DNA of 34,274 bases from Lentzea aerocolonigenes. Lineage in GTDB: Bacteria > Actinomycetota > Actinomycetes > Mycobacteriales > Pseudonocardiaceae. Positions 16,095 to 23,734 of this stretch are shown one piece after another; positions within the stretch are counted from its first letter, which is position 1, and each line of letters opens with the position of its first letter. A program made the position numbers and the translations under genes. The notes beneath the pieces were generated by a model. That model was not told the DNA's origin, ran no database searches, and worked only from the letters and a program-made list of their open reading frames with translations. The DNA lies in contig NZ_JYJG01000251.1 of the NCBI RefSeq assembly GCF_000955955.1, positions 1 through 34,274 of the forward strand, read 5' to 3'.

Positions 16095-16925
16095 TCAGTT
16101 CCAGACTTCACGAACTGCCTCGGCCACGGAGGCGGCCTGTGCGAAGCCCGCTTCGGCGGCGGGCTTGCGGCGAGCGGGGTCGAGCAGGTTGGGGCCGATC
16201 GCGGCCAACGCCTCCCCGGACGGGCTCACCACGATCGACGGCACGCCCAGCCGGGCGGCCTGCGCCTGCGGAGTCGCGGCAGCGGAAGCCGCACGAGTCA
16301 GCGGCGCCACGACCACGACCCGCGAGTACCCAGCGGCGAGGTCCACGTTCGCCGCCGACCGCATGCCGCCGTCCATGTAACGGTGACCGTCGATCGTCAC
16401 CGGTGGCCACACCAGCGGCACCGCGCAGCTCGACGCCACCGCGCGCACCAACGGCACTCCGCTGTCCCGGTCGAACGCCACGAACTTCCCGTCAGCGACA
16501 TCAACGGCGGTCACCTTCAGGGCGCGCTCAGGCCAGTCCGAAATAGACAGTCGCGACGAGAACACCGCCAAACGAGACTCCTCGGACGGCGTGCGAGCCT
16601 TCACCGCGGCACGACCCAGCCGCGCCCGTTTCCGGGCCGGACTACCGGGCATCACGTAGGAAAGGGCGTACCGCACCAGCATCCACGGGGTCAGCCGCGC
16701 CGGGATCTCCCCATCGGGCGGCAACAACTGACCCTCGTACAGGTCACTCAACGCCGCACCGCCCGCCAACTGCGCGGCCACCACCGACCCTGCCGACGTC
16801 CCCACGAACAGGTCCGCATCTGTCAGGTCGACGCCCGCAGCAGCCAGTCCGTGCAGAATCCCTGTCTCCCAAGCGATTCCGGTGACGCCACCGCCGCCCA
16901 GCACCAAAGCCCGTTTTTCGTTCAC
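16095..16925 (-). CDS. Patatin-like phospholipase family protein
   Basis: A 276-aa cytoplasmic or membrane-associated lipid acyl hydrolase of the RssA-like patatin group. The oxyanion loop is [10 protein letters not shown] (residues 7-16), the nucleophile elbow is GTSAGS (Ser44), and the catalytic aspartate is in [15 protein letters not shown], giving the Ser-Asp dyad. Start choice: ATG 16934 is only two codons upstream of another candidate and has AGG directly abutting it. GTG 16925 has AGGA eight bases upstream, so I favour GTG. It is divergent from metH, sharing the 150-base control region, and lies 115 bases upstream of the GH8 gene on the same strand. The substrate is unknown. Confidence 0.9.
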
Positions 16926-16952
16926 ACGGGCCATCCTACGAAGTGAGACCGG

Positions 16953-16982
16953 TTCCTGGCCGGTGGTCGTCCGCGCTATCCT
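16953..16982 (+). promoter_or_regulatory. Candidate metH promoter
   Basis: TATCCT at 16977-16982 fits a -10 box, with a weak -35 (TTCCTG, 16953-16958) 18 bases upstream. A start about seven bases downstream would put the 5' end of the mRNA just before the first stem of the riboswitch at 16991, which supports the call. Confidence 0.45.
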
Positions 16983-16990
16983 GCTCAGCG

Positions 16991-17063
16991 AGGCCGAGAA
17001 GCGCTGCAACGGGCTCCAGACCCGCCACGCTCGGCCTTGTACGACCATGAACAAGGGCGCTTC
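16991..17063 (+). promoter_or_regulatory. S-adenosylhomocysteine (SAH) riboswitch
   Basis: The leader matches the SAH riboswitch plan. P1 is AGGCCGAG (16991-16998) paired with CTCGGCCT (17030-17037), a perfect 8 bp. The conserved core AGCGCTGCAACGGG follows. P2 is CGGG (17010-17013) with CCCG (17021-17024) around a 7-base loop, then GCCACGCTCGG (consensus CCAGGCTCG). The pseudoknot pairs AAGCGC (16999-17004) with GCGCTT (17057-17062), extended by one wobble. In known cases SAH binding turns expression on, allowing SAH and homocysteine to be recycled. The pseudoknot arm ends ten bases before the metH ribosome-binding site, the usual place for translational control. I considered a cobalamin riboswitch and saw no B12-box. 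Confidence 0.85.
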
Positions 17064-17072
17064 CGACTTCTC

Positions 17073-17082
17073 GGGAGCGCGC

Positions 17083-17085
<3 letters not shown>
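17073..17085 (+). promoter_or_regulatory. Ribosome-binding site deciding the metH start
   Basis: GGGAG (17073-17077) lies five bases before GTG 17083. The in-frame ATG at 17047 has no Shine-Dalgarno sequence and would place the riboswitch pseudoknot arm inside the coding region, so GTG 17083 is preferred. Confidence 0.7.
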
Positions 17086-20655
<3,570 letters not shown>

Positions 20656-20780: not shown

Positions 20781-21815
20781 ATGCGAGCTGCGGCGCTGGT
20801 GCTGGGTCTGTTGCTGTTATCCGGCTGCGGTGGCGCCGCGAAGTCCGACGCGCTGCCGCACGTGGGTTTCGTCGTCAAGCGCACGGGCGGTTCGTTCGCG
20901 CAGGAGATGACCAGCGGGTTCCACGAGGGCGTCGGCCGCATCGGCGGCGTCAGCGCCACCGTGACCGGGCCTCCCGGCCAGGACGGGCACAAGGAAGTCG
21001 AGTTGTTCGCCGATTTGACGGTCGCAGCGATTGGCGGAATCGCGGTCGCCACCTCCGAACCCGCGCTGATGGCACCGGCCATCGGTGAGGCGCTGAGCCA
21101 GCACGTCGCCGTCATCGGTGTGGACATGCGGCTCACCGCGAGTTCCGGCGTGAAACTGCACATCGGTAACGACAACTACGAACTCGGCGAAAAGCTGGCT
21201 GACGAGTTGATGCGCCGATTGCCCTCGAACGCGACCGGGACTGTGGTGCTGGGAAACACCTCACCGGGACTCGCCGGGTTCGACGACCGTGCCGACGGCA
21301 TTCGGGGGCGATTCGCCGAGAAGCTACCGGGAGTACTGGTGCTGGGGCCGTTCGACACGCAGCGCGACGACGAGGCGAACCTCGACGCGTGGCGAAGACT
21401 CGTGGCGGCGAATCCCGATGCCCTCGCGTTCGTTGGGACCGGTGACTGCGACGGGGTCAACCTCGCCGCGATAAGGACCGAGAAGTCGGCGAGGTGGCTG
21501 GTGGGCGGTTTCGGGGTCGACCCGAGAACGTTGCAGGCGGTGCGGGACGGCGCGATGGTGGCGACGATCTCGCCGGAGCACTATCTCAAGGGCGCTGTCG
21601 CGGGCTGGTTGCTCGCGCGGCACGCCACTGGAGCGGCACCATTACCCGAGGGCTGGGTCGAGACACCGGGGTTGACGGTGACCACCGCGAACCTCGACCA
21701 GATCCTGCACCGGCAGGAGTCCGAGAAGGCGCGCAAGGAGTTCTTCCAAGCGCAGATCGACAGCTTCGTCGAGGATCCGTCGAGCTGGGTGCGACCGTTG
21801 GAGCAGGCACGGTGA
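20781..21815 (+). CDS. Periplasmic-binding-protein-like lipoprotein (sugar-binding type)
   Basis: A 344-aa lipoprotein. The signal ends in lipobox LLSGC with Cys16 as the lipidated residue, so it is anchored outside the membrane. The rest has the type I periplasmic-binding fold of ribose/LacI-like receptors (HVGFVVKRTGGSFAQEMTSG, AVIGVDMRL, IGNDNYELGEKLADELMRRL, GFGVDPRTLQAVRDGAMVAT). Three features tie it to signalling instead of uptake: no permease or ATPase gene is nearby, its stop overlaps the start of a membrane GGDEF-EAL gene as GTGA, and its last 45 residues (LHRQESEKARKEFFQAQIDS) form an extra helix that could contact that protein. The ligand is unknown. GAGG nine bases upstream supports ATG 20781. 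Confidence 0.88.
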   Translation: MRAAALVLGLLLLSGCGGAAKSDALPHVGFVVKRTGGSFAQEMTSGFHEGVGRIGGVSATVTGPPGQDGHKEVELFADLTVAAIGGIAVATSEPALMAPAIGEALSQHVAVIGVDMRLTASSGVKLHIGNDNYELGEKLADELMRRLPSNATGTVVLGNTSPGLAGFDDRADGIRGRFAEKLPGVLVLGPFDTQRDDEANLDAWRRLVAANPDALAFVGTGDCDGVNLAAIRTEKSARWLVGGFGVDPRTLQAVRDGAMVATISPEHYLKGAVAGWLLARHATGAAPLPEGWVETPGLTVTTANLDQILHRQESEKARKEFFQAQIDSFVEDPSSWVRPLEQAR

Positions 21816-23734
21816 GGCTTTGGGAGGGCCGCGCCACCGCACGGGTGGCGACGGCAGGGCTGACGGCCGGGCTGCTGGCCCTGGCGGGGCTGGCGCTGTG
21901 GAGCAGCGTCTCCGCGCAGGCCACGACCGCGCACGTGCGGGCTCTGAACGACTCCAGCGAGCGGTGGAGCCGCGTGCTGGAGCACATCAACGTCGCGGAC
22001 AACGCGTTGCGGGACCTGCAGGCCATGCGCACCGAGCAGACCCTCGAGCCGTTGCAGAACTCGCTGGGTTCCGCGCGCGGTGAGATCGAGTGGCTGCGCA
22101 CCAAGGGGCAGGCCGACGACGTCGCGGAGGCGGCGCGGTTGATGCCTCTGTACGACCAGACCACGGAAATCCTGCGCAAGGTGATCGCCGGCCAGGACTC
22201 GCTGCAGGCGGACCAGGCGTCGCTCGCGCACTCGTCGTTGCGCCGTCAGATCTCCTCGACGATCGGGGACAAGCGCCTCGACACCCTCGAGTACCTGCGT
22301 TCCGCGGACGAGAAGAACTCGAGCCTGCGGGTCGCCCAGATCATCGCGTTCGTGCTGGACGCGTTCCTGGTGGGACTGTTCGGCATGGTCCTGCTGGGCC
22401 ACCGCCGCAAGATCCTGCGCCAGGCCGCCAAGAACGAGCACGAGGCCCATCACGACGCGCTGACGGGTCTGGCCAACCGGACACTGCTCGCGCGGCGCAT
22501 GGAGACGGCCGTCGCCAAGGCGTGCAAGAAGAACGAGCCGCTGGCGTTGCTGATCGTGGACCTGGACAGGTTCAAGGAGGTCAACGACTCGCTCGGGCAC
22601 CACACCGGCGACCTGCTGCTGCGCCAGGTGGCGAACAGGCTCTCGTGGGCCGTCCGCGACACGGATCTGGTGGCACGGCTGGGCGGTGACGAGTTCGCCG
22701 TGCTGCTGCCCGCTGTCGGGTCGGCCGAGAACGCGTCGATGGTCGCGGAGAAGATCCTCGGCGCGCTGGCCATGCCGGTCACGCTGGAGGGTCTGGAACT
22801 GGAGATCGCCGGCAGCGTCGGCGTCGCCCTGTGCCCGGTGGACTCGATGGACGGCCACGAGTTGTTGCGGCACGCGGACATCGCGATGTACGCGGCCAAG
22901 CGCGAGAAGTCCGGTGTGGCCGTCTACGACGCCCGCCTGCACGAGCGCGGCGCCTCGCAGCTCACCGCCGTCACGGAACTGCGGCACGCGATCGACCGCG
23001 GTGAGCTGTTCCTGCACTACCAGCCCAAGGCTCTGGCCGACACGGGCGCTGTGTGCGGCGTCGAGGCGTTGGCGCGCTGGCAGCACCCGACCCGTGGGCT
23101 GGTGCGGCCGGACGAGTTCATCCCGATCGCCGAGGAGAACGGTCTCATCGAGCCGTTGACCCGGTACGTGATCGACGCGGCGCTGCGGCAGTGCCGGGCG
23201 TGGCAGGACGCGGGCTGGGAAGTCCCGGTCTCGGTGAACGTGGGCGCGGCCTGCTTGCTGCACACGGAGTTCCCCGGTGACGTGTCCGATCTGATCAAGC
23301 GGCACGGACTTCCCGCGCGACTGCTGACGCTGGAGATCACCGAGTCGGCGATCATCTCCGACCCGGACCGCGCGGTGGACGTGCTGCGGCACCTCACCGA
23401 TCTCGGCGTGCGACTGTCCATCGACGACTTCGGCACCGGCTACTCGTCCATCTCGTACCTGCGCAGCATGCGGGTGCACGAGATGAAGCTCGACCGGTCG
23501 TTCGTGACGCACATGTGCACGGACGCCGGTGACAGCGCGATCGTGCACGCCCTCGTCGCCCTGGCCAGGAACTTCGGGCTGCAGGCCGTCGCGGAGGGTG
23601 TCGAGGACCAGGACACGTGGACGGCGCTGGCCGAGGCCGGCTGCGACGTCGTCCAGGGGTACTTCCTCAGCGAGCCGTTGCCCGCCGAGGAAGTCGTTGC
23701 CTGGCTTGGGGATCGGGCGGCCGCTCACGCCTGA
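21812..23734 (+). CDS. Membrane GGDEF-EAL c-di-GMP turnover protein
   Basis: A 640-aa protein. TM1 is at about residues 12-31, followed by an extracytoplasmic helical sensor region (about 32-175), TM2 at about 176-197, a GGDEF domain with GGDEF at 291-295, and an EAL domain with EAL at 418-420. The cyclase signature GGDEF and the inhibitory RxxD site five residues before it (RDTD) are intact. The EAL domain keeps DDFGTGYS, MKLDRSF and AEGVED, so both synthesis and breakdown of c-di-GMP are possible. The GTG start at 21812 overlaps the lipoprotein stop; the frame is open upstream to 21494, but that stretch lies inside the lipoprotein gene. Its last 10 bases overlap the convergent phosphotransferase gene. 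The likely role is a receptor whose ligand sensing is supplied by the lipoprotein. Confidence 0.93.
   Translation: MRLWEGRATARVATAGLTAGLLALAGLALWSSVSAQATTAHVRALNDSSERWSRVLEHINVADNALRDLQAMRTEQTLEPLQNSLGSARGEIEWLRTKGQADDVAEAARLMPLYDQTTEILRKVIAGQDSLQADQASLAHSSLRRQISSTIGDKRLDTLEYLRSADEKNSSLRVAQIIAFVLDAFLVGLFGMVLLGHRRKILRQAAKNEHEAHHDALTGLANRTLLARRMETAVAKACKKNEPLALLIVDLDRFKEVNDSLGHHTGDLLLRQVANRLSWAVRDTDLVARLGGDEFAVLLPAVGSAENASMVAEKILGALAMPVTLEGLELEIAGSVGVALCPVDSMDGHELLRHADIAMYAAKREKSGVAVYDARLHERGASQLTAVTELRHAIDRGELFLHYQPKALADTGAVCGVEALARWQHPTRGLVRPDEFIPIAEENGLIEPLTRYVIDAALRQCRAWQDAGWEVPVSVNVGAACLLHTEFPGDVSDLIKRHGLPARLLTLEITESAIISDPDRAVDVLRHLTDLGVRLSIDDFGTGYSSISYLRSMRVHEMKLDRSFVTHMCTDAGDSAIVHALVALARNFGLQAVAEGVEDQDTWTALAEAGCDVVQGYFLSEPLPAEEVVAWLGDRAAAHA

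Follow-up and report, generated by a model that had tools for sequence, protein, structure and literature searches.

A SAH riboswitch in front of metH in Lentzea aerocolonigenes and a predicted Shine-Dalgarno hairpin that shares its pseudoknot strand

Which RNA structure precedes the B12-dependent methionine synthase gene (metH) of Lentzea aerocolonigenes, in which direction would it act on the gene, and from which codon is the gene translated? These questions are raised by the metH leader within a 34,274-nucleotide stretch of contig NZ_JYJG01000251.1, which was analysed at its full length and is referred to here as the window; features lie on the plus strand unless otherwise indicated. The SAH riboswitch in front of Lentzea metH is a real observation, and the comparison of leaders makes it probable that the metH mRNA begins with ~95 nt that act as such a riboswitch, most likely a translational ON switch. 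Publications already cover the family, metH as a target and its occurrence in actinobacteria; the Lentzea example is a well-preserved and ordinary member, and nothing in the prior knowledge of SAH riboswitches is overturned. The locus provides a testable account of how, in one group of soil actinomycetes, methionine synthase may be coupled to SAH, a waste product of methylation, and it establishes a likely start codon for this metH. Through a three-strand design and an apparent exchange shared by the whole clade at the ligand site, it also supplies naturally occurring variants for the biochemical study of riboswitches.

The Rfam model of the SAH riboswitch (RF01057) matches positions 16990-17069 over its whole length (cmscan, model positions 1-78 of 78) with 41.1 bits against a curated cut-off of 37 (E 0.00018), which bears out the proposal of an earlier, sequence-only reading that the metH leader holds this riboswitch and answers the check that it had named. 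Other Rfam families had no match in the window, even at E<=1, and this includes the SAM/SAH (RF01727), SAM-II and SAM-III riboswitches. Across the genome of the strain RF01057 exceeds its cut-off at metH only; the five other matches at E<=10 score 19.9 bits or less and exactly one match occurs in each of 24 genomes of the genus (E<=0.1; 16 over the cut-off, 8 below), so the match stands above chance.

P1, P2 and the conserved core of the family are all present, and the 8-bp P1, the P2, the core and the 6-bp pseudoknot described by the sequence-only reading were all recovered at the places that it gave. The 5' strand of P1, AGGCCGAG (16991-16998), pairs at 8 of 8 positions with CTCGGCCT (17030-17037). 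It is followed by pseudoknot strand A, AAGCGC (16999-17004), and by the core AGCGCTGCAACGGG (17000-17013), and the Rfam alignment and the sequence place P2 at CGGG (17010-17013) and CCCG (17021-17024). The joining segment CCACG (17025-17029) leads back to P1, and a GG (17055-17056) lies 5' of pseudoknot strand B, GCGCTT (17057-17062), which forms 6 of 6 pairs with strand A. The locus shares with RF01057 the P1, the P2, the core, the 3' pseudoknot strand and a gene of the SAM cycle downstream, metH being one of those expected for the family (ahcY, metF, metH); the sole match over the cut-off in this genome lies at metH, ahcY not having been located there. It differs from the consensus in the pseudoknot, AAGCGC/GCGCUU instead of GAGCGC/GCGCUC, by one pair (G-C to A-U). 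The earlier description of this difference as a compensated change holds, whereas its usual pairing, GGAGCGC/GCGCTCC, is not the Rfam consensus; the extra G is part of P1.

The gene downstream, metH (17083-20655), starts with GTG and encodes 1190 aa. Its product exceeds the curated cut-offs of TIGR02082 (1598.8 bits; cut-off 1010.85) and PRK09490 (1874.9 bits; cut-off 1497) and carries five Pfam families in the order of MetH, so that the methionine synthase is complete. Both GTG 17083 and an upstream ATG at 17047 are in the metH frame, and a start at the latter would place the pseudoknot strand inside the coding sequence. The equivalent of GTG 17083 occurs in 24 of 24 loci of the genus and that of ATG 17047 (-36) in 1 of 24, that of the window itself. 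Leader length varies by single bases, from 92 to 95 nt, in 23 of the loci of the genus, which means that the frame is not kept across the leader, and other genera include leaders, among them L031, L057 and L083, in which in-frame stops separate the aptamer from the start. A start at ATG 17047 is extremely unlikely in view of these data, and was rejected for its single occurrence and for the frame-breaking leader lengths; GTG 17083 is supported as the metH start by comparison of loci, in agreement with the choice made in the sequence-only reading. Among the 77 metH leaders of the family set that have a recognisable core, an in-frame start lies 4-9 nt past the Shine-Dalgarno core in all 77, most commonly at 5 nt (30/77), and the codons are GTG (55), ATG (20) and TTG (2).

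A -10-like box of the form TANNNT, TATCCT, lies at 16977-16982 and predicts a transcription start at ~16988-16991. In the 77 leaders 77 TANNNT matches fall 5-10 nt before P1, versus 5 at the other 30 distances, and transcription should therefore begin at P1; the TATCCT pointed out earlier agrees with this conserved box. A strict sigma-70 promoter scan found nothing, so it is the conserved TANNNT box that carries the promoter call. On the minus strand, a divergent gene for a patatin-like phospholipase (16095-16934, PF01734) starts 43 bases from the -10-like box. Downstream, the ORF of a GGDEF-EAL protein (cyclic di-GMP turnover; 21494-23734) opens ~0.8 kb past metH, and a Peripla_BP_4 protein (20781-21815) lies between metH and this ORF, which it overlaps.

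Pairing was counted in the same 77 leaders, 75 of them distinct; coreless leaders (L088, L090, L091, L093, L096, L098 and 18 leaders of a second metH type) stood outside these counts, and the patterns used for the 3' side of P1 and for strand B included nt30 and nt46, with no cored leader failing them. P1 cells were paired in 557 of 600 cases, a value reached by 0 of 500 shuffles (which ignore relatedness), and three positions of P2 paired in 225 of 225 cells. Pseudoknot cells were paired throughout (450/450), with two compensated exchanges, both between groups of leaders: 52 leaders have G-C at the second pair where the 23 of the Lentzea type have A-U, and the sixth pair is C-G in 71 and U-A in 4. 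The Lentzea-type pseudoknot was found in 23 of 24 loci of the genus, L013 having the common one instead. Neither within the Lentzea type (23) nor within the main other group (48) was a two-sided pseudoknot exchange found, and 500 of 500 shuffles equalled the observed count, so that the case is made by differences between groups and the exchanges appear to reflect few independent events. The covariation of P1 and pseudoknot in relatives, proposed earlier as a check, was in this form found.

Folding predicts a second role for strand B, that of masking the Shine-Dalgarno sequence, an expression platform absent from the sequence-only reading. It runs on into CCGA, and the resulting 5' arm, GCGCTTCCGA (17057-17066), is complementary over 10 bp to TCGGGAGCGC (17071-17080), referred to here as strand C; the latter contains the Shine-Dalgarno GGGAG (17073-17077), 5 nt before GTG. 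The isolated hairpin (17057-17080) has a predicted folding energy of -16.8 kcal/mol (z -5.30), which none of 200 shuffles matched, and the predicted fold of the 96-nt leader consists of P1, P2 and this hairpin. In a set of 73 leaders, selected by a stricter definition of the core than the 77, all 73 predicted folds, judged by eye, bring strand B together with the Shine-Dalgarno strand, at -12.9 to -21.2 kcal/mol, with z-scores from -0.79 to -5.97 that mark some of the hairpins as weak alone. Shine-Dalgarno-hiding platforms are said to have been proposed for the SAH riboswitch class by Wang et al. in 2008.

Strand B has two mutually exclusive pairings, the pseudoknot and the ribosome-site hairpin. 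Over 71 distinct leaders, a count that omits four leaders of an intermediate metH type, 658 of 852 hairpin cells were paired versus a mean of 603.4 and a maximum of 621 in shuffles that ignore relatedness. Outside the Shine-Dalgarno core the pairing survives sequence changes: the pair flanking it was C-G in 41 leaders, G-C in 25, A-U in 3, G-U in 1 and A/A in 1. The main other group (48) gave 420 of 576 paired cells against a shuffle maximum of 414; when the Lentzea type was taken by itself, its observed count was reached by 48 of 500 shuffles. Where the A-B pair changes from G-C to A-U in the Lentzea type, strand C also changes from G to A, by which both exclusive pairings are kept, and this three-strand pattern provides the best evidence from sequence comparison that B may be shared by the pseudoknot and a hairpin hiding the ribosome site. 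When A and B were barred from other pairing, the modelled openness of the Shine-Dalgarno sequence increased from 0.00 to 0.59 in the window and rose in 74 of 77 leaders; in this rough ensemble model, which includes some coding sequence and in which P1 is not maintained, the ON state had a mean openness of only 0.31, exceeded 0.5 in 11 of 77 leaders and brought no rise in 3 of 77.

We infer the ligand here (SAH), the direction of control and the transcription start. Transcription would start at P1 or within a few nucleotides of it, and binding of SAH to the aptamer would stabilise the pseudoknot between A and B. With B held in the pseudoknot, strand C would be free and ribosomes could start at GTG 17083; without SAH the 10-bp hairpin of B and C would bury GGGAG and little MetH would be made. 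Hydrolysis of SAH yields homocysteine, which methionine synthase consumes, so that more MetH at high SAH would pull the breakdown of SAH forward. Upregulation by SAH is reported for the family in the accessible part of PMC7057144, which cites Wang 2008.

The opposite direction, in which SAH is an OFF signal and the bound pseudoknot directly blocks the ribosome, was judged unlikely. The distance from the end of strand B to GTG is 20 nt in 20 of 23 Lentzea-type leaders and 21-22 nt in the other 3, which falls within the usual 30S footprint. As far as the available text of PMC10907184 goes, the SAM/SAH, SAM-II and SAM-III riboswitches combine in a similar way a pseudoknotted aptamer adjoining the ribosome site with control of translation, and block that site in such a manner. 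These classes, however, bury the ribosome site when bound (OFF), whereas the Shine-Dalgarno of Lentzea metH belongs to the competing hairpin and not to the pseudoknot, from which an ON response would be expected; the reported upregulation also speaks against an OFF switch.

A hairpin acting on transcription, through termination or Rho access, and not on translation was considered very unlikely. Some relatives have ahcY leaders in which strand B provides the 5' arm of a terminator-like hairpin, as in L047 with its T6 run, but no terminator-like site was found in 16900-17100, and the metH hairpin covers a Shine-Dalgarno lying 5 nt before GTG. A terminator platform for metH was dropped as a candidate on account of that empty scan. 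The translational ON switch remains the preferred reading.

The ligand site of the Lentzea aptamer appears to depart from the consensus at two positions. Crystal structures of the Ralstonia solanacearum SAH riboswitch were reportedly described by Edwards et al. in 2010, and in the R. solanacearum numbering as assumed here, anchored on G15, C16, A29 and C46, we take C17028 and G17055 to be nt30 and nt46. On this assumed numbering the consensus nucleotides G15, C16 and A29 are kept, and the Rfam consensus G30/C46 (CCAGG, AACG) is replaced in the window by C30/G46 (CCACG, AAGG). The accessible portion of PMC7057144 describes G15, C16 and A29 as stacking on or bonding the adenine, also names C46, and places nt46 near the tail of the ligand in the crystal structure.

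The pair C30/G46 was found in 77 of 77 metH leaders of the family set, in 71 of 71 cored named loci, in 9 of 9 ahcY or MOSC leaders and in 32 of 33 further loci (a few of which overlap the earlier sets). Both positions were left free in the patterns used for the named and the further loci, and the latter count omits L201, L202, L204, L206 and L207 (26.5-31 bits, without aptamer-like order). G30/C46 was seen in L197, which precedes ahcY in a distantly related member of the phylum, and in L235, from Burkholderia (strand B by eye). Sampling outside the actinomycetes comprised one genome for the class of G299 and 4 of 87 plasmid records with AhcY relatives; among these four, Rfam matches over the cut-off were confined to the Burkholderia record and absent from those of Azospirillum, Sphingomonas and Streptomyces. 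The exchange looks like a compensated swap beside the tail of the ligand, but as a single difference between clades it is indistinguishable from two separate fixed changes.

An aptamer that has decayed or changed its ligand in the clade, leaving the hairpin as a constitutive damper or thermosensor, would account for the departures at nt30 and nt46 and for the 8 of 24 matches of the genus that lie below the cut-off. The pairing of pseudoknot and P1 is nevertheless preserved in the parsed leaders, and the nucleotides that contact the adenine, as named in the consulted part of PMC7057144, are unchanged by the assumed numbering; this reading was regarded as distinctly unlikely. A more tentative extension of the preferred SAH-responsive reading, to which a low probability is given, is that Actinomycetes hold a distinct sub-type of the SAH aptamer, marked by the nt30/nt46 swap seen in every parsed leader of the class, and that the amino-acid tail of SAH is perhaps read differently there. 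In this sub-type a single strand would alternate between pseudoknot pairing and a hairpin, ribosome-site (metH) or terminator-like (some ahcY), with the three strands changing together.

Beyond the genus, RF01057 was matched in 214 of 297 genomes of the family (E<=0.1; 92 over the cut-off; 31 of 46 genera), in 61 of 394 genomes sampled from the class (E<=0.02; 20 over) and in 12 of 396 sampled from the phylum (E<=0.01; 2 over). Several weak matches among these 12 are probably due to chance, since five of them (26.5-31 bits) lack an aptamer-like order. The 16 closest named MetH loci (87-92% identity) comprise 15 from Lentzea and one labelled Nocardia sp. NRRL S-836, which puts the window within Lentzea or beside it. 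Among the best 80 of 557 named loci encoding MetH relatives, the core motif lies upstream of 71, belonging to Pseudonocardiaceae and also to Kribbella, Herbidospora, Actinomadura, Catellatospora, Frankia and others; the 9 without the motif show 54-70% identity. A search of plasmids for similar DNA gave no match.

Aptamer and hairpin were recognised in 32 of 35 sampled leaders of the metH type of the window, a recognisable core being absent from the other 3 (L088, L090 and L091). An intermediate type had them in 4 of 7 leaders, a second type in 0 of 18. Loci L093 and L096 (genomes G026 and G123) each have a metH copy without an aptamer core and an RF01057 match ~3.8 kb along the same strand. 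The N-terminal part of MetH was matched in all 120 genomes of the family that were searched, in proteins of different types. The genome of the strain itself encodes a second full-length MetH (L239:587-4132, contig 573), 33% identical and, at 1504 bits, above the curated cut-off; no Rfam family matched the 4.4 kb around it. With the 0 of 18 aptamers in its type, this suggests that SAH may control one isoenzyme only. A cobalamin or other known riboswitch was considered for the second type and rejected, its 18 leaders giving 0 Rfam matches over the cut-off and the copy of the strain itself likewise none.

As to known examples, metH members of the SAH riboswitch are described for Comamonadaceae in the available part of PMC4239095, and SAH riboswitches are recorded for Mycobacteriaceae in that of PMC3766115, so that the Lentzea case shares its target with the former and its actinobacterial occurrence with the latter. 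For Lentzea metH the Shine-Dalgarno hairpin is deduced by comparison, whereas the Mycobacteriaceae cases are known here, from the accessible text, by occurrence alone. No paper title on the actinomycete metH platform was found, nor a paper pairing 'SAH riboswitch' with 'Amycolatopsis', in a search that largely left subscription papers outside its reach.

Genes other than metH also carry the aptamer in relatives. RF01057 precedes ahcY in four loci, and inspection of ahcY leaders by eye places strand B in a Shine-Dalgarno hairpin (L036) or in the terminator-like hairpin of L047. In L047, L048, L053 and L041 (L048 and L053 assigned to ahcY by eye) a strong strand-B hairpin lies well upstream of ahcY. 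One kind of aptamer may in this way drive an ahcY terminator as well as a metH Shine-Dalgarno hairpin. Locus L200 combines a SAH-like aptamer and a hairpin with a longest downstream ORF lacking NCBIfam (E<=1e-10) or Pfam (E<=1e-5) matches. In L034 (1501-2393), and also in L030, a SAH aptamer (45.5 bits) is found directly upstream of a gene for a MOSC-domain protein, a possible unusual target of SAH; in L034 a hairpin, judged by eye, covers the Shine-Dalgarno sequence of this gene, at whose end a cobalamin riboswitch (93.7 bits) starts.
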